A stretch of DNA of 64,000 nt from contig CACWTF010000002.1 in the NCBI GenBank assembly GCA_902763685.1, positions 1-64,000 on the forward strand. The letters are read 5' to 3'. The notes under the pieces were generated by a model. That model saw only the letters and a list, made by a program, of their open reading frames with translations. It was not told the DNA's origin and searched no databases. This DNA is from a methanogenic archaeon (GTDB lineage: Archaea; Thermoplasmatota; Thermoplasmata; Methanomassiliicoccales; Methanomethylophilaceae). The translations under genes and the position numbers were made by a program. Numbering within the stretch: the first letter of the stretch is position 1; every line of letters starts with the position of its first letter. Below are positions 35,801-50,100 of this stretch, one piece after another.

Positions 35801-36465
35801 CCTCCGACGGTATCACCCCTGATATCCTCGTCAACCCCCACGGTATCCCTTCCCGTATGACCGTTGGACACGTTCTCGAGATGATCGCAGGTAAGGTCGG
35901 ATCCATGGAGGCACGCACCATCGACGGTACCGCCTTCTCCGGAGAGTCCGAGGATTCCATCCGCGACGGACTCGTCAGGAACGGATTCGCAAGGTCCGGA
36001 AAAGAGATCATGTACGACGGAAGGACCGGACGCATGGTCGAGGCCGACATCTACACCGGTGTCATCTTCTACGAGAAGCTGCACCACATGGTATCCGGTA
36101 AGCTCCACTACAGGTCCAGGGGACCCGTGCAGATCCTTACCAGGCAGCCTACCGAGGGACGTTCCAGGCAGGGAGGTCTCAGGTTCGGAGAGATGGAGCG
36201 TGACTGTCTCATCGGTCACGGAGTGGCCATGGTCATCAAGGACCGTCTGCTCGACCAGTCCGACGGAACCCAGCAGTACATCTGCGGCAATCCGAACTGC
36301 GGACACATCGCAATCACCGACAGGACCGGACAGCGCTACTGTCCTGTCTGCCACGAAAGCACCAACATCCACCTTGTGCAGACATCCTACGCATTCAAGC
36401 TCCTCATGGACGAGCTTCTGTCGCTGGGTGTAGCCATGAGGCTTCAGCTGGGGGACTTATCATGA
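32818..36465 (+). CDS. rpoB: DNA-directed RNA polymerase subunit B, unsplit (RPB2-like)
   Basis: 1215 residues from TTG 32818 (a GTG at 32809 is the alternative). This is the full-length second largest subunit; many methanogens have it divided into B'' and B', Thermoplasmata do not. Conserved marks include [59 protein letters not shown], the hybrid-binding [16 protein letters not shown] and the C-terminal clamp zinc site CGNPNCGH ... YCPVCHE. A second cysteine set, CPCCGHAL ... CNWCHEKF near residues 684-722, is inserted just before [19 protein letters not shown], where eukaryotic RPB2 has only a short link. Coupled to rpoH and, by ATGA, to rpoA'. Confidence 0.96.
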   Translation: [1215 protein letters not shown]

Positions 36466-39458
36466 ACACTATCGACAAGAAAATCGGATCCATCAAGTTC
36501 TCCTGCATCTCCCCTGACGAGATCAGGAACATGTCCGCGGTGAAGATCATCACCGCCGACACCTATGATGATGAGGGTTACCCCATCCAGGGAGGACTCA
36601 TGGATTCCCGTATGGGAGTCATCGAGCCCGGACTCCGCTGTAAGACCTGCAACTGCAAGGTCGACGACTGTCCCGGACACTTCGGACACATCGAGCTTGC
36701 GATGCCCGTCATCCACGTCGGTTTCATCAAGGACATCAAGCTGATGCTGGAGTCCACCTGCTGCGTCTGCGGCAGGCTGATGCTTTCCGAAGAGGAGATC
36801 AAAGAGAGGATCGAGAGGATGAATGCCATCACCGACCTCGGCGGAGACACCATCGATCAGAAGAACTACAGTAAGGACACCGTCAAGGTGGCATCCAGCA
36901 GGGGAATCTGCCCCTACTGTAACGCTGAGCAGAGCAAGATCAAGCTCGACAAGCCCACCACCTTCAGGATCGTCAAGGACAACAACAAGCTGACCCCCAA
37001 GGAGGTCCGCGAGAGGCTCGAGAGGATCCCCGACGAGGACCTCAGGGCACTCGGAATGGACCCCGCCGTCTGCAGGCCCGAGTGGATGGTCCTCACCGCC
37101 CTTGCCGTTCCCCCCGTGACCGTCAGACCCTCCATCACCCTGGAGTCCGGAGACAGGTCCGAGGATGACCTCACCCACAAGCTGGTCGACGTGCTCAGGA
37201 TCAACCAGAGGCTCAGGGAGAACCGCGACGCCGGTGCACCCCAGCTCATCGTCGAGGATCTCTGGGAGCTCCTCCAGTACCACGTCACCACCTACTTCGA
37301 CAACCAGACCTCCGGAATCCCGCCCGCAAGGCACAGGTCCGGAAGGCCCCTCAAGACCCTCGCCCAGAGGCTCAAGGGTAAGGAGGGACGTTTCAGGTCC
37401 AACCTGTCCGGTAAGCGTGTGAACTTCTCCGCACGTACCGTCATCTCCCCCGACCCCAACCTCTCCATCAACGATGTGGGAGTACCCGTCAGGGCAGCCA
37501 GGGAACTCACCGTCCCCATGGCGGTCAACGAGCACAACATCGAGGACATGAGGCTGTTCGTCAAACGCGGACCCCTTGCCTTCGGCAGGTTCCTCAAAGA
37601 GGACGGCGACTACGACCTCGAGGCCGCACGCGAGTACGCCAGCAGGGAACTCTCCGACCTCGAGAAGGACACCGACTACCTCGCAGGAGTCAACTACATC
37701 TTCAGGGAGGACGGAAGGAGGATCAAGGTCACCCTCGAGAACGTCGAGACCGTGGCGGAGAACCTCAACGTCGGTTACACCATCGAGAGGCAGCTCGTCA
37801 ACGGCGACGTCGTCCTGTTCAACAGGCAGCCTTCGCTGCATAGGATGTCCATCATGGCCCACCGTGTCAGGATCATGCCCGGAAGGACCTTCAGGTTCAA
37901 CCTCACCGACTGTGCCCCCTACAACGCAGACTTCGACGGGGACGAGATGAACCTTCACGTCCTCCAGTCCGAGGAGGCCCGTGCCGAGGCACGCGTCATC
38001 ATGCAGGTACAGGAGAACATCCTGTCCCCCAGGTACGGAGGACCCATCATCGGAGGAATCCACGACCACATCTCCGGTTCCTACTTCCTCACCCACGGTA
38101 AGTACAACGAGGCCACCGGACAGATCGACGAGCCCAAGTTCGACCGCTACAGCGCGATGAACATCCTCTACAAACTCTCCGACTTCGGACTCGTGGACAA
38201 ATCCAAGGAGTACTTCGAAGAGCTCCGCAACGACCCCGAGGAGACCAAGCCCATCCCCGAGCCCAGCGGATACTACGAGAACGGAAAGCCCTACTGGACC
38301 GGTAAGGACCTGTTCTCTCTCGCACTTCCCAAGGACTTCAACATCACCTACAGGGCATCCGTCTGCCAGTGCGACCCCGGAAAGGGCTGCCGTGCCGGCG
38401 GAGTATGTCCCATGGACGGATACGTCAGGATCCGCAACGGAAAGCTGATCTCCGGAACCATCGACGAGAAGGGAGTCGGAAACAGCAAGGGTATGATCAT
38501 CGAGAAGGTCGCCCGCGACTACGGATCCGCCCGTGCAGCCAAGTTCCTCTACGACGCCACCAGGCTCGCTCTGGGAGCGGTCATGAACCACGGATTCTCC
38601 ACCGGTATCGGTGACGAGGACATCCCCGAGGAGGCCGTCAACCAGATCCAGGAGAACTCCAGGGAATGCATCAGGGCCGTCAGCGAGTATGTGGAGTCCT
38701 ACAGGGACCACACCCTCGACCAGATGCCCGGAAGGAGCATCAGGGAGACCCTCGAGGTGCTCGCACAGAGCAAACTCGGAGAGGCCCGTGGTCAGGCAGG
38801 AGAGATCGCAGGACAGTACCTCGGTATGTCCAACCCCGCGGTCATCATGGCCAAGACCGGAGCCCGTGGTTCGATGCTGAACCTGTCCCAGATGGCAGGA
38901 TGCGTCGGACAGCAGTCCGTCCGTGGTGAGAGGATCGCCAGGGGATACCTCGGCAGGACCCTCTCCCACTTCCACAGGGGAGACCTGGGAGCATACGCAA
39001 GGGGATTCTGTCTGAACTCCTACAAGTCCGGACTCACCCCCACCGAGTTCTTCTTCCACGCAATGGGAGGAAGGGAAGGACTCGTCGATACCGCGGTCCG
39101 TACCGCCAGGTCCGGATACATGCAGAGGCGTCTCGTCTCCGCACTCGAGGACCTCAAGCTCACCCTTGACGGAAGCATCAAGAACACCGTCGGTACCATC
39201 GTCCAGTTCAAATACGGAGAGGACGGAACCGACCCCTCCAGGGCAGTCCGCGGAAAGGCGGTCGATCTCAACGACCTGTTCTCCGAGGTGCTCGGCGACA
39301 AGGCCGACAGCGTCCTGAACGTCGACCAGAAGGAGAACCAGGGAGACGACTACGGATCCCGCGAGAAGGACCTCGAACAGTACGAGGATTACGATGACGA
39401 CGGTGACGAGGACAGCCTCGACAGCGACGACGGATCCGACTACGAGGGAGGTGAGTGA
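36462..39458 (+). CDS. rpoA1: DNA-directed RNA polymerase subunit A' (RPB1 N-terminal part)
   Basis: 998 residues, about 100 more than usual. It forms the clamp and active centre. The catalytic metal motif NADFDGDEMNLH is intact near residue 485. The N-terminal zinc site CKTCNCKVDDCPGHFGHIE is near 58-76 and CCVCGRLMLS/CPYCNAEQ follow. RFRSNLSGKRVNFSARTVISPDP and the bridge/trigger region PTEFFFHAMGGREGLVDTAVRTARSGYMQRRLV are canonical. The final 50 residues are an acidic tail (QYEDYDDDGDEDSLDSDDGSDYEGG region) not typical of A'. It starts by ATGA overlap with rpoB and ends just before rpoA''. Confidence 0.96.
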   Translation: MNTIDKKIGSIKFSCISPDEIRNMSAVKIITADTYDDEGYPIQGGLMDSRMGVIEPGLRCKTCNCKVDDCPGHFGHIELAMPVIHVGFIKDIKLMLESTCCVCGRLMLSEEEIKERIERMNAITDLGGDTIDQKNYSKDTVKVASSRGICPYCNAEQSKIKLDKPTTFRIVKDNNKLTPKEVRERLERIPDEDLRALGMDPAVCRPEWMVLTALAVPPVTVRPSITLESGDRSEDDLTHKLVDVLRINQRLRENRDAGAPQLIVEDLWELLQYHVTTYFDNQTSGIPPARHRSGRPLKTLAQRLKGKEGRFRSNLSGKRVNFSARTVISPDPNLSINDVGVPVRAARELTVPMAVNEHNIEDMRLFVKRGPLAFGRFLKEDGDYDLEAAREYASRELSDLEKDTDYLAGVNYIFREDGRRIKVTLENVETVAENLNVGYTIERQLVNGDVVLFNRQPSLHRMSIMAHRVRIMPGRTFRFNLTDCAPYNADFDGDEMNLHVLQSEEARAEARVIMQVQENILSPRYGGPIIGGIHDHISGSYFLTHGKYNEATGQIDEPKFDRYSAMNILYKLSDFGLVDKSKEYFEELRNDPEETKPIPEPSGYYENGKPYWTGKDLFSLALPKDFNITYRASVCQCDPGKGCRAGGVCPMDGYVRIRNGKLISGTIDEKGVGNSKGMIIEKVARDYGSARAAKFLYDATRLALGAVMNHGFSTGIGDEDIPEEAVNQIQENSRECIRAVSEYVESYRDHTLDQMPGRSIRETLEVLAQSKLGEARGQAGEIAGQYLGMSNPAVIMAKTGARGSMLNLSQMAGCVGQQSVRGERIARGYLGRTLSHFHRGDLGAYARGFCLNSYKSGLTPTEFFFHAMGGREGLVDTAVRTARSGYMQRRLVSALEDLKLTLDGSIKNTVGTIVQFKYGEDGTDPSRAVRGKAVDLNDLFSEVLGDKADSVLNVDQKENQGDDYGSREKDLEQYEDYDDDGDEDSLDSDDGSDYEGGE
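39447..39454 (+). promoter_or_regulatory. Strong Shine-Dalgarno site of rpoA''
   Basis: GGAGGTGA, a full match to the anti-Shine-Dalgarno core, five bases before ATG 39460. It lies inside the 3' end of rpoA' and codes for its last Glu-Gly-Gly-Glu residues. Confidence 0.7.
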
Positions 39459-39459
39459 A

Positions 39460-40971
39460 ATGGCAAAGAAAGATACTAAAGCAGCCCTTATGAAGAGGGG
39501 CATCAGCGAGGAGGTTGCCACCGTTCTCATCGAGAACTTCAACTCCCTCGGCGAGATCGCCTCCGCCGGCATCGAGGGACTCGACGCCGTCGGAATCGAG
39601 AGCGAGGTCGCAGAGAAGGTCCTTGCCAGCCTCGGCAACACCGCCCGCAAGAGCAAGAAGCCCGCACTCAAGGCAGCCGCGGAGTCCGCACCTGCCGAGG
39701 AAGAGGCCGTTCCCGAGGGTCCCCGCGAGGAGTACACCGGGAAGCAGCATGTCAACACCGAGACCGAGCAGAAACTGTTCGACATCGCGGAGAAGAACGG
39801 CGTGACCCTTCCCAAGAAGGTCGTCTTCGACATCGCCGAGAGGATCGACAAGGCCGCGGACAAGTCCATCTTCGACGACGCGACCTGCGAGAAACTCATC
39901 GTCCGTGCAGGCGAGATGTATGACAGCCACAAGATGTGCCAGAACGAGTCCGCAGGAGTCATGGCGGCACACTCCATCGGAGAGCCCGGTACCCAGATGA
40001 ACCTGCGTACCTTCCACTTCGCGGGAGTCGCATCCGTGTCCGTTACCCAGGGTCTTCCCCGTCTCATCGAGATCGTGGATGCCAGGCGTGACCCCAGCAC
40101 CCCTTCGATGATCATTCCCCTCACCGGCCTCGCCGCTGAGGACGAATCCCTCGCGAAGCACGTGGCTTACAACATCGAGACCACCAAGCTCCGCAACGTC
40201 GCGACCATCGAGACGGATATCACCAACCTCCGTCTCATCATCATCCCCGACGCCAGGAGCATGGACAAACACGATCTCACCCTCGACGACCTCGTCGACG
40301 CACTCAGCAAGATCAAGGCCGTCCGCGGCCTGGTCCAGAAATGCCCCGCATTCGACACCGACTCTCCCAACGCAGTCGACACCAACCTCGTGATCAACTC
40401 CGATCCCGAGGGAGAGGCACCCTACGCCAAACTGCAGGAGATGCACGATGCCATCGAGAACGCGAGGATCAAGGGCGTCGACAAGATCAAGAGGGCACTG
40501 ATCGAGCAGGACAGCAAGACCGGAAAGTACCGCATCATCACCGAAGGAAGCAATCTGAAGGATATCCTCAACGTCGAGTACGTCGACAAGGATAACGTCA
40601 TGACCAACTCCATCATCGAGATCGCGGACGTCTTCGGAATCGAAGCAGCCAGGAACTCGATCATCCACGAGGCTACATCCACCCTCGGCAACGCAGGACT
40701 CGACGTCGACGTCAGGCACATCATGCTCGTCGCCGACCTGATGACCAACGACGGAACCGTCAGGGCCATCGGAAGGAACGGAGTTTCCGGAAAGAAGTCC
40801 TCCGTCCTCGCCAGGGCAGCATTCGAGATCACCGCCGCCCATCTGCTGCACGCAGCGATGGTCGGAGAGGTGGACAGGCTCGAAGGAGTAACCGAAAACA
40901 TCATCGTAGGTCAGCCGGTGACCTTAGGAACCGGAGCAGTCAAACTAGTTTACGATCCCAAGAAGAACTAA
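39460..40971 (+). CDS. rpoA2: DNA-directed RNA polymerase subunit A'' (RPB1 C-terminal part) with N-terminal HhH-like extension
   Basis: 503 residues, roughly 100 longer than the usual A''. The polymerase part begins around residue 115 and shows QNESAGVMAAHSIGEPGTQMNLRTFHFAGVA, GLPRLIEIVDARRDPSTP and the end TENIIVGQPVTLGTGAVKLVYDP. The first 60 residues (MKRGISEEVATVLIENFNSLGEI ... GIESEVAEKVLASLG) look like a tandem helix-hairpin-helix module, followed by an Ala/Lys/Glu-rich linker. Similar additions may exist in other Thermoplasmata; their job is not known to me. One base separates the gene from the A' stop, and it has the best SD site of the operon. Confidence 0.95.
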   Translation: MAKKDTKAALMKRGISEEVATVLIENFNSLGEIASAGIEGLDAVGIESEVAEKVLASLGNTARKSKKPALKAAAESAPAEEEAVPEGPREEYTGKQHVNTETEQKLFDIAEKNGVTLPKKVVFDIAERIDKAADKSIFDDATCEKLIVRAGEMYDSHKMCQNESAGVMAAHSIGEPGTQMNLRTFHFAGVASVSVTQGLPRLIEIVDARRDPSTPSMIIPLTGLAAEDESLAKHVAYNIETTKLRNVATIETDITNLRLIIIPDARSMDKHDLTLDDLVDALSKIKAVRGLVQKCPAFDTDSPNAVDTNLVINSDPEGEAPYAKLQEMHDAIENARIKGVDKIKRALIEQDSKTGKYRIITEGSNLKDILNVEYVDKDNVMTNSIIEIADVFGIEAARNSIIHEATSTLGNAGLDVDVRHIMLVADLMTNDGTVRAIGRNGVSGKKSSVLARAAFEITAAHLLHAAMVGEVDRLEGVTENIIVGQPVTLGTGAVKLVYDPKKN

Positions 40972-42874: not shown

Positions 42875-43522
42875 ATGAGAAAGAGTTCACGTCTGATTTT
42901 GGCGCTTGACGAAACCGACGAGAAGAAGGCACTGGCGATCGCGGAATCCGTCTCCGGTATAGTCGATGCCATCAAGATCAACTGGCCCCTGGTGCTTTCC
43001 GCCGGTCCCGAGATGATCACCAAGCTCTCGAAGTATTCCGACGTGATCTGCGACTTCAAGGTAGCTGACATCCCCAACACGGTCCGTCTCATCGTCGAGA
43101 ATTCCGTGGCCCGCGGCGCCGCGGCGGTCATCGTCCACGCATTCCCCGGCAGCGATTCCCTCGCGGAGGCCGTCAAGGCCGCCGGAGACAAGGCCGCAAT
43201 CTATGCCGTGACCGAGATGAGCCACCCCGGAGGAAAGGAGTTCACCGCCCCCAACGCCGAGCGTCTGGCACAGGTGGGTGTGGACTGCAACGTCAGGGGT
43301 TTCATCGCTCCCGCCACGCGTCCCGAGCGCATCGCCGCCATCAGGAAGATCATCGGCGACAGGGAGATCCTCTCCCCCGGCGTAGGTGCACAGGGCGGTT
43401 CCGCATCCGAGGCGATCAAGGCCGGCGCCGACTACGTCATAGTCGGACGTGCAATTTACAAATCCGACGACCCCCGTAAGGTCGCAGAGGACATAGCCAG
43501 CGAGATAAAATCGGTCCTCTAA
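42875..43522 (+). CDS. pyrF: Orotidine 5'-phosphate decarboxylase
   Basis: 215 residues, usual archaeal length. It converts OMP to UMP. The catalytic charge network is visible in DFKVADIPNT (Asp60, Lys62, Asp65), together with LALDETD at the start, the AIKINWPLVL strand and the phosphate-binding SPGVGAQGG and ADYVIVGRAIYKSDDP near the C-terminus. TATA-like TGTTAAATAAGG is about 30 bases upstream. The gene stands alone; no other pyrimidine gene is in the window apart from thyX. Confidence 0.96.
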   Translation: MRKSSRLILALDETDEKKALAIAESVSGIVDAIKINWPLVLSAGPEMITKLSKYSDVICDFKVADIPNTVRLIVENSVARGAAAVIVHAFPGSDSLAEAVKAAGDKAAIYAVTEMSHPGGKEFTAPNAERLAQVGVDCNVRGFIAPATRPERIAAIRKIIGDREILSPGVGAQGGSASEAIKAGADYVIVGRAIYKSDDPRKVAEDIASEIKSVL

Positions 43523-43553: not shown

Positions 43554-43580
43554 CTTATATATTATAATTAAAACCTATAA
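43554..43580 (+). promoter_or_regulatory. Promoter of the AglB-like giant gene
   Basis: CTTATATATTATAATTAAAA includes the TATA box (about 43555-43564), 31-40 bases before the ATG at 43595; a second AT box CCTATAAATA follows. The strong, long AT-run differs from most promoters in the window. Confidence 0.55.
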
Positions 43581-43594
43581 ATACAGAATCGCGC

Positions 43595-46500
43595 ATGGAA
43601 CGCTATTCGAAATCGATTTACGGAGATTCGAGAATGCGCACATTTGGAAAGAAACAGACCAGTCCTGCCGATTCTGAGGGCAGGGCATCCTCTCCCGCGG
43701 AAAAATCCGCAGGACAGGACAGTTGGTTCAGAAAGAACTGGTGTGTGCTGACCCTTATCGCAATCGTCGTCGTCGCTTTCCTGCTGAGATTCTGTTTCGT
43801 ATACGGCATCTCCGCAGGCGACAACTACGCACTGTCGGGCGGGAGCAGCGCTGCCAGTCACCGTCGTATAATCGCTGAAATCCTCTGGGGAACCTACAAC
43901 CCCGGCAACGAGGCCGCCCTCAACTACCCCTACGGTGCTGAGAGCATATACGGCCCCCTGTTCGATTACTGCTGTGCTGCCTGGGCCAAGCTGTTCTCGG
44001 CATTCGGCATGAGTTACGACGCTTCCGCAGGCGCAGCACTCGCTTGGAACCCCCCGATCTTCGGTGCCCTCACATGCATCCCCGTATTCATGCTGGCCAC
44101 CAAGATCTTCAAGGGCGACAAGGTCATCGGGCTCACCGCAGCAGGATTCTACTGCCTGTTCCCCGCCCTGATCATGACCTCCCCCTTCTCCTACGGAACC
44201 GAGCTCCCCTTCCTCTGCTTCCTCGTCGCAGGACTCACCTACTTCGTCGTATCCGCATTCAGTGCGGTCGATGAGCTGGGAGTCACCGGAATCAAAGAGG
44301 TCTTCACCACCAAGGCCGTCCTCATGTGGGTCCTTCTCGCAGCACTCTTCATGGTGTTCATCGTACTCACCTGGACCGGATTCTGGGCCATCATGATGGT
44401 TTCCGCTGTCATGCTGTTCTTCGCACTCCTGTTCGCCCGCCTCGCCGGCAGGCCCTTCGGTGCGGTGGTCGGTGTCGCCAGTGCGGTTCTTCTCGCGGGA
44501 GTAGTGGCGGGCGCATGCTATTACATCCCCTACGGAATGTGGGACAGTGTATTCTCCGGAGGATGCCTCGTCGGTGTACTCGCAGTCGCCTACAGCATCC
44601 TGTTCCTCGCTCTTGAGAAGAAGCCCTGGGTACTCTCCATCCCCCTGACCTGCGTCGTCATCCTGGCGGTCGCGGTCGTCCTCTACTTCGTCGCACCCGA
44701 GCTCTCCGATGCGGCCCTCAGCGGAAACGATGTCTACGTCGGTTCCCTCATGAGTTCCCTCGCAGCCGAGACCAGCCGTACCAGCATCTCCGCTATGGCC
44801 TCCTACTACGGATGGCTCACCCTCTGGTTCCCCCTGCTCCTCGGATTCTGGATGTTCTACAAGTACCGTGAGAACATCAGGAGCAACACCTACACCTTCA
44901 CCATGCTCTGGCTCCTCGCATGCTACTGCGTCGGATGGTACAACTCCGAGTACGCGATCGTCGCAGGTGCCGGATTCGCCGTGGGTTCCGCGGCACTCAT
45001 CGTCATGGTCTTCAGGGCTGTTGACCTCAAATCCTACTTCCGTTCCCTCAGGGGCAACGGAGCGAAGGCAGGTGCCAAGAAGGCACTCAACTTCTTCCCC
45101 CTCGTGACCGTCCTCGTGGCGGTCCTCCTCGTGGCCGTCCCCACCGCTGTATACGCAGCAGACGCGGCCACCCCCTCCAACGACGACGGTGACGGATACT
45201 TCGGCGGCATGGGTTACACCATCAACACCAGCGACTCCAGCCTCGTCAACTCCGCATGGGCGCATTCGAACGATTACGCAACCAACGACAAGACCCTCCT
45301 CGCCTGGTACGGTTACTCCGATTCCGCCAGCTCCGCAGGAGGATTCTCCACTGTCACCAGTTCCATCGGAGGCGGAACCTCTGCCATGGCATCCGTGTTC
45401 TACGCTACCAACGGTTCCGAGGCCATCGCCTCCTTGCTCATCCGTCTGATCGAGAGCAACCCCTCCGCATACAAGACTCAGATGACCGGTGCCGGCCTGA
45501 GCGACGAGGATGCCGATGCGTTCATCGGAATCCTCAATTCCGAGAGCAAGGCCCGTGCATACATGGCCGAGAACCCCGACAAATTCGTCGGATACAACGC
45601 CTCTCCCGCATCCGAGAGCCTGCCCTACATCGTCGGATCCAAGTTCCTCGAGTCCAAACTCGGCGAGAGCAAGATCTCCGAGATGTACGAGGCTGTCTGT
45701 GCCGCAAGCGGCAAGAGCATCAACTACATCGAGGTCGACGCGGGAATGATCCCCCTCTACTACGGTGACGGAAGCTACGCAAGCTCCGCAGCCTACTTCG
45801 GTGACTACAAGCTCGATAAGTACAATGCCCCTTCCAAGTTCTTCAACGTATCCAGCACCACCGAGTACTACTATCAGTACGGATACTACGACAGGATGTA
45901 CTACGATTACACCGACGATATGTACGACACCTTCTTCTGGAACGCTGTCATGGGAGTCACCCCCGAGACCTACGGCCTCAGCAGCGGCATCAACCTCCTG
46001 TCCTCCCTCGCATCCTCCGACGGTTCCGTCGTGGCAACCCCCGGAGCCGGAATGGGACACTTCAAGGTCGTATATTGGCACCTCAACTACAAAGCGAGCG
46101 AGAACGCCAGCTGGGTCGATATGGATGCAACTGCAGCCTTCGCCAAACTGAAGGACGAGGGCGGTTACGTCAACTTCCTCTCCTCCGTCGTCGTACTCGA
46201 GTACGTCTCCGGATCCGCCGCAACCACTGTCTCCGTAACCTCTGGCAGCGAGAAGGTAGCCAACGTCAAGGTGGCTGTCTTCGAGAAGTACGAGGTCTCC
46301 GACGCGGTATCCTACGTACAGCGCAGCACCGCATATACCGACGAGAACGGTGAATGCGACATCGTGCTCCCCGCCTCCGACTACCTCATCAGGTACTATG
46401 TCGGTTCCGAGCACCTCAGGGACGGAACCCTCGTAGTGACCCAGAGTTCCTATTCCGCCGTGGATCTGGCAGCCGTCAGCATCGCAGGAAGCCTCGTGAA

Positions 46501-49324
46501 CTCCGACGGAAAGGCGATCGAGAACTCCAACTGCACCATATCCTTCACCGACAGTTCCGGAAAGGTCAAGCAGACCGTATCCGTCGGAACCGACGGTACC
46601 TTCACCGGCGTCTCGCTGGTCCCCGATAAGTACACCGTCACCGTGTACTCCGCCGACGGAGCCTCCGTCAGCAGCGAGAGCCTGTATGCGGTTTCTACTG
46701 CCACCGATGTGAGGATCAGTGCCACCACCGGATCCATCAAGGTGTCCTTCGTCGACATGTTCGGAAACACCGCGGACAACGCGAACATCACCATCACCGA
46801 TGCGACCGGTAAGAAAGTCGAGTACACCGCAGCCCAGCTCACCACCCTCGAGGGAGTCATCCCCGTCGTTGCTGGAACATACACGGTCGACGTCTCCGCA
46901 GCTGACCTTGTCTCCACCGGGGCCAAGACCGTCACCGTCAGTTCCGGAAGCTCCAGCACCCAGAACGCCGAGCTCACCGTGTACGCAGCCACCACCAAGG
47001 GTGCGGCAGGCGACTTCGTAATGGGCATCGGATATCTCGGATTCCTCGGAGATCACAACTCCGTGCCCGCTCTGGCAGCCGACAAGCTCACCGTTTACAA
47101 CGACTCCACCGGGGCCAAGACCGTATCTGGAACCGTCAAGAACAACGGAAGCGGAACCTCTGCCACCGTCGTGTTCATCAACGGAACCTCCACCTACGTG
47201 TTCAGCACCGGATCCGACGGATCCTTCAGTGCCAAGCTGCCCAGCGGAAACTACGACCTCTACGTCTACAACAGTGCTGGACGCGTATACTATGAGAAGG
47301 GCATCGATGCCTCCGCAGATGTCAGCGACAAGGCAATCGCACTTGGCGAAGGACGCACCGTGACCTTCACCGTCAACTACACCACTCTGATGTCTCCCAG
47401 CACCAGGGGAATCGCATATGTCCCCATTACGCTGAAGGTGACCGTTGAGGATAAGGACTACACAATGTACCCCATCACCGGTACCGACGGTATCGTGAAG
47501 GTCTATGTACCCAGCGGTGCGAAGATCTCCTACAGTATCGCCGAAGTATCCAGCGATATGTCCGCAAAGTTCAACTGGACCAAGCCCTGGACCAACGGAA
47601 CCGACACCGAGCCTGTGACCGTCACCGCTGCTACCAGCGTAAACCTCAAGTTCGAAGGAAAGGAGACCACCGACAAGCCTTATATGGAAGCCGTCTCCGC
47701 ACCTACCTTCAAGAACAGTGACGGAACCGATCTTCCCGATGCAGTTTACCACTTCGACGCTTACGCAAGTGCCGGACAGGACTTCTACATGAAGGTGGAA
47801 AGCGGTTCGCCCACCTTCTACAGCGACAAGGAGTGCAACACCAGCATCACAACGGTCCTTGCAGGCCGTTACACCGTCTCCGTCGAGAGCGGCAACGCCT
47901 TCGTGGATTCCGTTACCGTGAACATCTACCCCACCACAACCGAGGTGAAGTTCGCAGCCATCAACGCTGCCAAGATCACCTTCAGCACCGCAGCTGCCAA
48001 CAGCGTCGAGGTCGTATGCCTTTCCATCAACGATACCGAGGGTACGACCCACAGCGACAATGAGACGACCTCCGGCATCACTACCTACACTTACTACGTG
48101 CAGAAGGATGCCGCCTACTCCTACTACTTCGTCGTCACCAACGGAACCAAGATCGCATACACTGATGTGTACACCGGCAGTGCGGACATCACCGATGCCA
48201 TCGAGCCTGTCGAAAAGAAGACCCTCAAGGGTTACGTCGGTTCCTCCATCGACGGAGATATCCTCGTGACCTTCGACACCTCCAAGAAGGCACTCGTTAA
48301 GGTCAGCGGAGGAGAATACTCCGTGGACCTGCCTGTGGGCGAAGCAAGCGTGAGTGTCAGTTCGATGATCCTCAACGCAAGCAAGGACAATGCCAACCAC
48401 ACCTACTCGGTCACCGATGCGGAACTCCTCTCGGCGGCCATCGACGTGGATGCCGACAAGACCCAGAACTTCGCTGTGAAGACCACCGAGTCCGCAGCAG
48501 GTTCCTACAGCATCACCACCGCATCCATGGATTGCGATGCAGGTACCGGAACCGCCACCGTGAAGATCACTGGCGGAGACGGAACCTATTTCGTCAACGG
48601 AGGCAACGGATTCACCCTTGACAAGACATACTCCATCACCCTCAACGGTGCGGATGGAAACGTCGATGTCAGTGGATTCTTCAACGGTGCATCGGTCGGT
48701 GCCGGAAACTCCGGTATGACCCTTGTCATCACTAAGCTGGGAAGCAGCGACTCGACCACTCTCGTGATCCCTGCCGAGTACTACATCAACGGAGCCACCG
48801 GGGAACTTACCGTAGCCACCGCAGGTGATGGAGAAGCAAAGGATTCCAGGAACGGATTCGGTTACAAGTACGTCCTTGCGTTCGACAACAAGAACTCCGC
48901 TGCGGTCAAGATCGTGTTCGATAAGGCTCAGACCATTTCCGAATCCGGGCTTGACGAAGACAAATGGATCCTCGCATTCGTCGACGAGAGCGGATACCTC
49001 GTGGATGCTGACGAATACTACGTCAACGGACTCACCACCACTAACCTGTATGCGATGCTCATCAACAAGACCGGCGACGGCAGCGAAGTACCCGGTCTTT
49101 CCATTAACTTCGATGCCGGTTCCGGTGACGAAGAAGTGCAGGTCTCCGGACCCCAGTCCGGTTCCGTATCCGTTGATTCCTCTTCCGCATCCGGAAGCGG
49201 AATCGACAACAGCGAATCCACTCTCCCCATGGGATTCTGGATCCTGCTGGTCTTCGCAGTGCTTCTCCTCCTCATCAGTGTATGGGGCGGAATGAAGAGG
49301 GGGGTGTTCTCACGCAGAAACTGA
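43595..49324 (+). CDS. AglB/STT3-like membrane protein with giant extracellular C-terminal region
   Basis: 1909 residues. Residues 1-45 are cytoplasmic; about 47-520 hold some 12-13 membrane helices arranged like the oligosaccharyltransferase AglB/STT3. The first external loop has GDNYAL (Asp76), HRRI and NYPYGAESIYGPLFD, and another loop has SSLAAE (Glu391) resembling the external-loop-5 Glu motif. The WWDYG catalytic motif is replaced by AWYGYS near 570-575, and the usual second acidic residue before NYP is Asn102. From about 525 the protein is extracellular, with Ig-like and carboxypeptidase-regulatory-like repeats (for example TDENGECDIVLPASDY), over 15 N-glycosylation sequons, and ends with one more helix (LPMGFWILLVFAVLLLLISV) and a basic tail. 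Related to archaeal AglB, but activity is open; it may be a modified transferase or a surface structural protein. Confidence 0.8.
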   Translation: MERYSKSIYGDSRMRTFGKKQTSPADSEGRASSPAEKSAGQDSWFRKNWCVLTLIAIVVVAFLLRFCFVYGISAGDNYALSGGSSAASHRRIIAEILWGTYNPGNEAALNYPYGAESIYGPLFDYCCAAWAKLFSAFGMSYDASAGAALAWNPPIFGALTCIPVFMLATKIFKGDKVIGLTAAGFYCLFPALIMTSPFSYGTELPFLCFLVAGLTYFVVSAFSAVDELGVTGIKEVFTTKAVLMWVLLAALFMVFIVLTWTGFWAIMMVSAVMLFFALLFARLAGRPFGAVVGVASAVLLAGVVAGACYYIPYGMWDSVFSGGCLVGVLAVAYSILFLALEKKPWVLSIPLTCVVILAVAVVLYFVAPELSDAALSGNDVYVGSLMSSLAAETSRTSISAMASYYGWLTLWFPLLLGFWMFYKYRENIRSNTYTFTMLWLLACYCVGWYNSEYAIVAGAGFAVGSAALIVMVFRAVDLKSYFRSLRGNGAKAGAKKALNFFPLVTVLVAVLLVAVPTAVYAADAATPSNDDGDGYFGGMGYTINTSDSSLVNSAWAHSNDYATNDKTLLAWYGYSDSASSAGGFSTVTSSIGGGTSAMASVFYATNGSEAIASLLIRLIESNPSAYKTQMTGAGLSDEDADAFIGILNSESKARAYMAENPDKFVGYNASPASESLPYIVGSKFLESKLGESKISEMYEAVCAASGKSINYIEVDAGMIPLYYGDGSYASSAAYFGDYKLDKYNAPSKFFNVSSTTEYYYQYGYYDRMYYDYTDDMYDTFFWNAVMGVTPETYGLSSGINLLSSLASSDGSVVATPGAGMGHFKVVYWHLNYKASENASWVDMDATAAFAKLKDEGGYVNFLSSVVVLEYVSGSAATTVSVTSGSEKVANVKVAVFEKYEVSDAVSYVQRSTAYTDENGECDIVLPASDYLIRYYVGSEHLRDGTLVVTQSSYSAVDLAAVSIAGSLVNSDGKAIENSNCTISFTDSSGKVKQTVSVGTDGTFTGVSLVPDKYTVTVYSADGASVSSESLYAVSTATDVRISATTGSIKVSFVDMFGNTADNANITITDATGKKVEYTAAQLTTLEGVIPVVAGTYTVDVSAADLVSTGAKTVTVSSGSSSTQNAELTVYAATTKGAAGDFVMGIGYLGFLGDHNSVPALAADKLTVYNDSTGAKTVSGTVKNNGSGTSATVVFINGTSTYVFSTGSDGSFSAKLPSGNYDLYVYNSAGRVYYEKGIDASADVSDKAIALGEGRTVTFTVNYTTLMSPSTRGIAYVPITLKVTVEDKDYTMYPITGTDGIVKVYVPSGAKISYSIAEVSSDMSAKFNWTKPWTNGTDTEPVTVTAATSVNLKFEGKETTDKPYMEAVSAPTFKNSDGTDLPDAVYHFDAYASAGQDFYMKVESGSPTFYSDKECNTSITTVLAGRYTVSVESGNAFVDSVTVNIYPTTTEVKFAAINAAKITFSTAAANSVEVVCLSINDTEGTTHSDNETTSGITTYTYYVQKDAAYSYYFVVTNGTKIAYTDVYTGSADITDAIEPVEKKTLKGYVGSSIDGDILVTFDTSKKALVKVSGGEYSVDLPVGEASVSVSSMILNASKDNANHTYSVTDAELLSAAIDVDADKTQNFAVKTTESAAGSYSITTASMDCDAGTGTATVKITGGDGTYFVNGGNGFTLDKTYSITLNGADGNVDVSGFFNGASVGAGNSGMTLVITKLGSSDSTTLVIPAEYYINGATGELTVATAGDGEAKDSRNGFGYKYVLAFDNKNSAAVKIVFDKAQTISESGLDEDKWILAFVDESGYLVDADEYYVNGLTTTNLYAMLINKTGDGSEVPGLSINFDAGSGDEEVQVSGPQSGSVSVDSSSASGSGIDNSESTLPMGFWILLVFAVLLLLISVWGGMKRGVFSRRN

Positions 49325-50100
49325 ACGTATCCATACTGGCAGTCGCGATCATGCTGACTGCAGGTATCGCCGGAGCACTTGTCATGAGCGACGATTCCTC
49401 CGCCGCAAGCGGTACCGGAAGCGGTGTCGTGACCTTCGACTCCTACTACATCGCCACAGAGAAAACGACCGATGCGCACATCGTCTTCACCGACAGTGCG
49501 GCATACTCCGAGATCACCTGGTCCGCCAAGCTCACCAATTCCTCGGGCTCCACCCAGTCTGGTGCCCTCAGCAAGACCTCCGGATCCGCCGCTGAAGAGA
49601 CCATCACAGTCACCGCACCCAAGGTCGCCGGTAACTATACCCTCACCGTGACCTTCAAGGAGAAGGTGGATTCCGATAGCTACGAGTACACCGCGAAAGC
49701 AGTGCTCCACGTGGGTAACCCCATCACGCTGTCCGTCACCCTCAAGGTGCCTAGCAGTGCAGGTGTAGGATTCAGCAACAACGTCTACTTCTACGTCGAC
49801 GGTGTGAAGTGCGACGACAGCGAACAGATGCTCACCATCAACCCCGGAGAGACCAAGACTGTCCAGTACAAGTACTACAACCACAACCTCTCCTCCGGAA
49901 AGCACACCTACTACGTGGCAGCCGGAGAGAACGTCGACGTCACCGGACTCGATGCGAAGCAGACCTTCTACTATGAGCAGAGCACCCAGGATTACCTCCT
50001 GTGGATCGCCGGAATCATAGTGGTCCTGATGATCCTCTTCGCTGTATGGGTGTTCCGCAAGCCTGTGAAGAACTACGGAAAGCCCAAGGCAAGGCGTTAA
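49282..50100 (+). CDS. Surface protein with CARDB-like domain and C-terminal membrane helix
   Basis: 272 residues starting at ATG 49282, inside the preceding gene (43-base overlap in another frame); no other ATG, GTG or TTG precedes the signal peptide. Residues about 14-35 (LNVSILAVAIMLTAGIAGALV) are the signal peptide, followed by MSDDSSAASG. The ectodomain is beta-rich; VKCDDSEQMLTINPGETKTVQYKYYNHNLSSGKHTYYVAAG near 175-215 looks like a CARDB adhesion-type domain. NSS, NYT and NLS sequons are present. Near 240 there is a membrane helix (LLWIAGIIVVLMILFAVWVF) and the tail KPVKNYGKPKARR is strongly basic. The overlap suggests coupled translation and a shared surface role. Confidence 0.75.
   Translation: MGRNEEGGVLTQKLNVSILAVAIMLTAGIAGALVMSDDSSAASGTGSGVVTFDSYYIATEKTTDAHIVFTDSAAYSEITWSAKLTNSSGSTQSGALSKTSGSAAEETITVTAPKVAGNYTLTVTFKEKVDSDSYEYTAKAVLHVGNPITLSVTLKVPSSAGVGFSNNVYFYVDGVKCDDSEQMLTINPGETKTVQYKYYNHNLSSGKHTYYVAAGENVDVTGLDAKQTFYYEQSTQDYLLWIAGIIVVLMILFAVWVFRKPVKNYGKPKARR

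Follow-up and report, generated by a model that had tools for sequence, protein, structure and literature searches.

A giant AglB orthologue with degenerate active-site motifs is probably kept for a non-catalytic role in Methanomethylophilaceae

Among the closest described systems is the archaeal oligosaccharyltransferase (OST) AglB of Archaeoglobus fulgidus, AfAglB (PDB 3WAJ, 3WAK, 5GMY and 7E9S; STT3/AglB/PglB family, PF02516), in which Asp47, Asp161 and His163 are the metal ligands, Glu360 of the TIXE motif is also used, and the Ser or Thr of the sequon is bound by the WWDYG and DK/MI motifs (PMC8342417). The protein studied here, referred to as pseudo-AglB, shares with AfAglB the STT3 transmembrane fold and the core that follows it, as judged by model and profile. 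However, it lacks the first DXD Asp, the second DXD motif, the Thr-Ile of TIXE and WWDYG, and it has an additional beta-sandwich ectodomain of ~1000 residues with a C-terminal anchor. The giant single AglB proteins of other Thermoplasmata (2,050-2,440 aa) resemble pseudo-AglB in architecture and downstream partner and, for members of the order, in locus. Unlike pseudo-AglB, they retain TIXE and WWDYG, and their ectodomains are rich in sequons. Gram-positive pilins and adhesin stalks (TIE, BcpA, PitA, CNA B repeats) match the ectodomain locally as beta-sandwiches, but with a global TM of ~0.1 and no detected sequence homology the likeness is one of domain type only. Gut Methanomassiliicoccales have a further kind of large surface protein, the adhesin-like Flg_new (PF09479) group; a domain search of pseudo-AglB found no Flg_new match. 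No S-layer or cell wall was seen in Methanomethylophilus alvi and ISO4-H5 (PMC10673518, PMC5011839), and glycosyltransferase loss in gut Methanomassiliicoccales has been reported earlier (PMC9723798).

The window, the whole 64,000-nucleotide stretch of DNA analysed, encodes pseudo-AglB in an open reading frame at 43595..49324 on the plus strand (1909 aa), the coordinates and length given in an earlier note on this DNA. The source genome has the same genus label as Ca. Methanomethylophilus sp. 1R26, and the proteins of locus L069 and genome G036 are identical over the compared stretch. Translation probably begins later than the first codon of the frame at 43595, the likely true start being Met14 at 43634, which has a GGAG ~9 nt upstream and is kept in all relatives. 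Very long antisense frames lie on the minus strand opposite the STT3 gene (43568-48400, 1610 aa) and opposite rpoA (36444-40124, 1226 aa); these are probably artefacts of codon composition.

Pseudo-AglB is a true STT3/AglB homologue with an STT3 fold. The transmembrane domain spans residues 44-526 (43724..45172, plus strand). TIGR04154 (archaeo_STT3) matches residues 52-526 with E=8.7e-26 and 90.5 bits, below its curated cut-off of 450 bits, which no genome of the order or the class sample reaches either. PF02516 matches above its cut-off in a six-frame search (27.6 bits) and is absent from the hmmscan output for the whole protein. A profile built from 44 relatives matches AfAglB (3WAJ/5GMY) with E=1e-19 over residues 7-492; profiles were needed, since phmmer with the single full-length protein against the PDB gave chance matches only. 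Residues 44-905 were modelled with AlphaFold2 (mean pLDDT 80.4, pTM 0.74), and the best PDB matches of the model are the AglB structures 7e9s, 5gmy, 3wak and 3waj (E 4e-14 to 1e-11, TM ~0.55), with eukaryotic STT3 and bacterial PglB ranking after these four. The central extracellular core following the transmembrane domain (residues 527-875, 45173..46219, plus strand) lies inside the modelled part that matches AfAglB. All these comparisons agree with the STT3-like N-terminal part proposed in the earlier note, and the overlay on AglB that it suggested shows that the STT3 fold is present.

Alignment showed how far the active site has departed from that of AfAglB (all positions on the plus strand). 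Ser85, within GGSSAASH (43847..43849), is placed where AfAglB has the catalytic, metal-binding Asp47 of the first DXD motif. The earlier note had pointed to Asp76 and Asn102 as loop residues; both exist, but Asp76 is ruled out as the catalytic residue by the alignment, in which Ser85 occupies that column. Thr202-Glu203 (44198..44203) stand where AfAglB has Asp161-His162 of the second DXD motif. The Glu of TIXE (AfAglB Glu360) is present, without the Thr-Ile of the motif, as residue 392 (44768..44770) rather than 391 as numbered before. WYGYS (residues 571-575, 45305..45319) occupies the expected place of WWDYG, and the previously noticed reading AWYGYS (W571-Y572-G573) is indeed seen in the sequence. 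DAGMI (residues 715-719, 45737..45751) is a remnant of the DK/MI-motif region, for which the canonical form in the order is DxRLF. Glu392, Trp571 and Asp715 are retained in the window protein.

Motif tables covering 52 derived Methanomethylophilaceae proteins, 25 intact-motif proteins and class-wide Thermoplasmata representatives showed that the loss extends across the derived clade. The Asp of the first DXD motif is present in 6% of the derived proteins compared with 100% of the intact ones, and the EL1 Asp position is taken by Ser, Gly or Ala. Among the same 52 proteins, the Asp and His of the second DXD motif are both at 0%, the TIXE Glu is at 6%, and WWDYG is kept in none (0/52), its second Trp likewise being at 0%. 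The DK/MI region has its Asp in 75% of the derived proteins and the canonical Arg in 0%. Outside the derived clade, the Thermoplasmata representatives have the first Asp, TIXE or TVXE, and WWDYG, with a variable second DXD motif; the Methanomethylophilaceae genera g10 and g13 have all motifs intact. If pseudo-AglB were an ordinary, active enzyme whose motifs tolerate change, this could explain why Glu392, Trp571 and Asp715 persist in the window protein, and it would be in line with the variability of the second DXD motif in other intact-motif Thermoplasmata. However, elsewhere in the class the first-DXD Asp, TIXE and WWDYG are all retained, and the best-preserved derived protein retains 4 of 12 motif residues, with none higher, which makes this explanation very unlikely.

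A transferase with a changed mechanism, in which the old cavity holds a new active site for another acceptor, linkage or donor, would fit the retained STT3 fold and the purifying selection described below, as well as the recurrence of SNGTE in EL2 (Glu203 in 39/53) and the frequent Asp at position 715. However, among the derived proteins no Asp, Glu or His reaches a conservation of at least 80% at the former metal-binding and TIXE positions, the EL1 Asp has been replaced, and glycosyltransferases are depleted. We consider this explanation improbable, and the new transferase subtype put forward in the earlier note finds no support, since the derived proteins share no conserved acidic or metal site that could stand in for the old one. 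From the substituted motifs, we infer that pseudo-AglB cannot transfer glycans to sequons, so the derived clade would probably be without AglB-dependent N-glycosylation.

The rpoA tree, read without G037 (a mis-extracted sequence on an absurd branch), places the intact-motif genus g10 as sister of the derived clade (support 100). The early-branching genus g7 still has the vestiges GGSDAAYHL and VTWLDFGAEA (L118), and active-site vestiges dwindle along the branching order (L118, L119). The sister position of g10, together with g7 vestiges such as WLDFG, fits a single loss followed by decay. Conservation was 2/12 for the motif columns versus 70/158 for other conserved columns (p=0.07, marginal); as the loss of motif columns is barely above that of other invariant columns, the whole region has diverged. 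A partial loss is seen in one further genome, G016 (locus L126), which keeps 7/12 motif residues, with Glu changed to Leu and WWDYG to WNGYG. In the tree this genome falls within a family whose other members have intact motifs (support 100), and its motif loss is independent of that in the derived clade.

Comparisons of the locus showed that the STT3 gene is single and stays in place. The source genome has no second STT3 gene in a genome-wide profile search, so the second canonical aglB that the earlier note proposed to look for was not found there. A single giant STT3 protein is encoded in 135/147 genomes of the order and in 142/150 genomes of the class sample, with lengths of mostly 1,830-2,560 aa for complete frames in both sets. 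By synteny, pseudo-AglB is encoded where the order has its aglB locus, common to the intact-motif orthologues, and the derived gene has full-length open frames at this locus in almost all genomes. Synteny and single copy rule out a duplicated and diverged paralogue. Throughout the order, the STT3 gene lies in a stable neighbourhood between pyrF and a conserved gene for a secreted or membrane protein of ~260 aa. In the window, these are the pyrF-like synteny marker at 42875..43522 and the 272-aa partner at 49282..50100, both on the plus strand; the partner has a signal or transmembrane helix, an Ig-like part, a C-terminal transmembrane helix and a YRKPVKNYGKPKARR tail. The partner gene is found 3' of the STT3 gene at 72 examined loci across the class, including a few duplicates, where the two frames overlap or nearly abut, and an iterated profile showed that its product is homologous across Thermoplasmata (loci L062-L126, L197-L216 and the window). 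The partner is a candidate OST-associated subunit without a clear family assignment.

The ectodomain of pseudo-AglB consists of a chain of beta-sandwiches (residues 876-1878, 46220..49228, plus strand), in which one domain is recognisable as CarboxypepD_reg, a domain found in the ectodomains of 24/39 members. Its model has a pLDDT of 79.7 and shows local matches to pilins and adhesins with low global TM. The chain ends in a transmembrane helix with an RGVFSRR tail (residues 1879-1909, 49229..49321, plus strand), and related RGVF.RR tails are found across the order. The large, C-terminally anchored ectodomain recognised in the earlier note is thus real, but its size is not unusual, as ectodomains of this kind are the rule throughout the class. 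The giant ectodomain is ancestral to the class Thermoplasmata and is present on OSTs with intact motifs too, which rules it out as a peculiarity of pseudo-AglB. The predicted arrangement of pseudo-AglB, with a large extracellular chain of beta-domains and an anchor, fits the layout of a membrane-anchored surface protein.

The derived transmembrane domain is under purifying selection. Its omega in close pairs is 0.10-0.27, compared with 0.07-0.17 for the intact proteins, and it is under tighter constraint than the ectodomain (omega 0.11 to 0.55) in several derived pairs. The low omega of the transmembrane domain indicates that the gene is not simply decaying. A functionless gene heading for loss would account for the dwindling vestiges and for an ectodomain omega of up to 0.5 in some pairs. 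However, this is extremely unlikely, given that nearly every genome has a full-length frame in the syntenic position and that the transmembrane-domain omega is far below 1. Retention chiefly for a role in secretion or lipid binding, in which the pseudo-OST binds a lipid carrier or aids the folding or translocon exit of surface proteins without glycan transfer, is a serious rival to a structural role and in our judgement possible, if rather unlikely. It would explain why the transmembrane domain too is constrained, sometimes above the ectodomain, and eukaryotic STT3 is located at the translocon according to PDB titles among the model matches. However, the metal- and sequon-binding residues are gone, and the genes syntenic with the STT3 locus are pyrF, purD and hypB, with no secretion gene adjoining.

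Sequon counts differ between the derived and the intact proteins. The forward-to-reverse ratio of N-x-S/T in the part after the transmembrane domain is 1.02 in the derived proteins versus 1.90 and 2.11 in the intact proteins of the order and the class, respectively (Mann-Whitney p ~1e-8 and ~1e-13, with kinship ignored). However, the intact-motif genus g10 is likewise not enriched in sequons (25 versus 28), and the sequon signal thus tracks the motifs imperfectly. The idea of a tethered substrate, raised in the earlier note, does not suit the pseudo-AglB clade but could apply to the intact relatives (1.9-2.1). The ectodomains of intact-motif giant AglB proteins are about two-fold enriched in sequons (class-level loci L178-L215); because of this enrichment, an intact giant AglB may glycosylate its own ectodomain.

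Glycosyltransferase and adhesin genes follow the same division. Here as elsewhere in the analysis, many of the statistics lack phylogenetic independence, and MAGs make up most of the genomes. Among genomes at least 90% complete, the median number of GT2 genes per genome is 2.5 in the derived clade versus ~10 in the intact families f2-f6, and three near-complete derived genomes have none. G016 has 4 GT2 genes versus 8-16 elsewhere in its own family. GT4 genes number 1-4 in derived genomes, 9 in G016 versus 18-26 in its tested relatives, and 2-12 in other families. Since GT4 genes remain and some derived genomes have several GT2 genes, lipid-linked glycans could exist in the derived clade. Nearly all derived genomes encode Flg_new adhesins, as does G016, where they number at least 38; none are found in g10, g13, f2, f3, f4 and f6, and four f5 (g20) genomes have single matches. 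In both cases of motif loss, glycosyltransferases are thus fewer and Flg_new adhesins of the host type are present. PF00953 (GlcNAc-1-P transferase) is uninformative as a pathway marker, being missing from the entire order, intact-motif families included. PMT_2 counts do not separate the derived from the intact groups, and no PMT_2 was found in the source genome, G072, G076, G077 and G016.

Taken together, pseudo-AglB is the orthologue of the single giant AglB of Thermoplasmata, and it has probably lost its OST activity in place and been retained for a non-catalytic role. Of the two readings in the earlier note, the clade-wide catalytic loss, the independent partial second loss, the single STT3, the vanished sequon enrichment and the depleted glycosyltransferases favour that of a former enzyme that became a surface protein. 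The architecture suggests that the remaining role is probably structural, as a surface scaffold. Most simply, N-glycosylation would no longer have been needed upon host adaptation and loss of the S-layer; the active site could then have decayed, and the protein would have stayed because the giant AglB of the class already had another role that was still required. The ~1000-residue beta-sandwich chain would lie outside the membrane with an anchor at each end, the STT3 bundle at one and the C-terminal helix at the other. This scaffold would probably act together with the downstream membrane protein found across the class, and it would belong to the envelope in cells reported to be without an S-layer. 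More tentatively, and at somewhat less than even odds, AglB-dependent N-glycosylation would be gone from nearly the whole host-associated family and, by convergence, from a second host-adapted lineage, with the dead OST serving as a doubly anchored scaffold alongside its class-wide partner. A limited literature search found no description of an STT3 pseudoenzyme. If the loss of N-glycosylation is real, the presence of aglB would be misleading in this family of gut and rumen methanogens, where STT3 is recognisable and its active site gone. The family would then offer a natural, apparently convergent experiment on the non-catalytic roles of STT3, and it would allow one to test directly if archaea that lose the S-layer can do without N-glycosylation.
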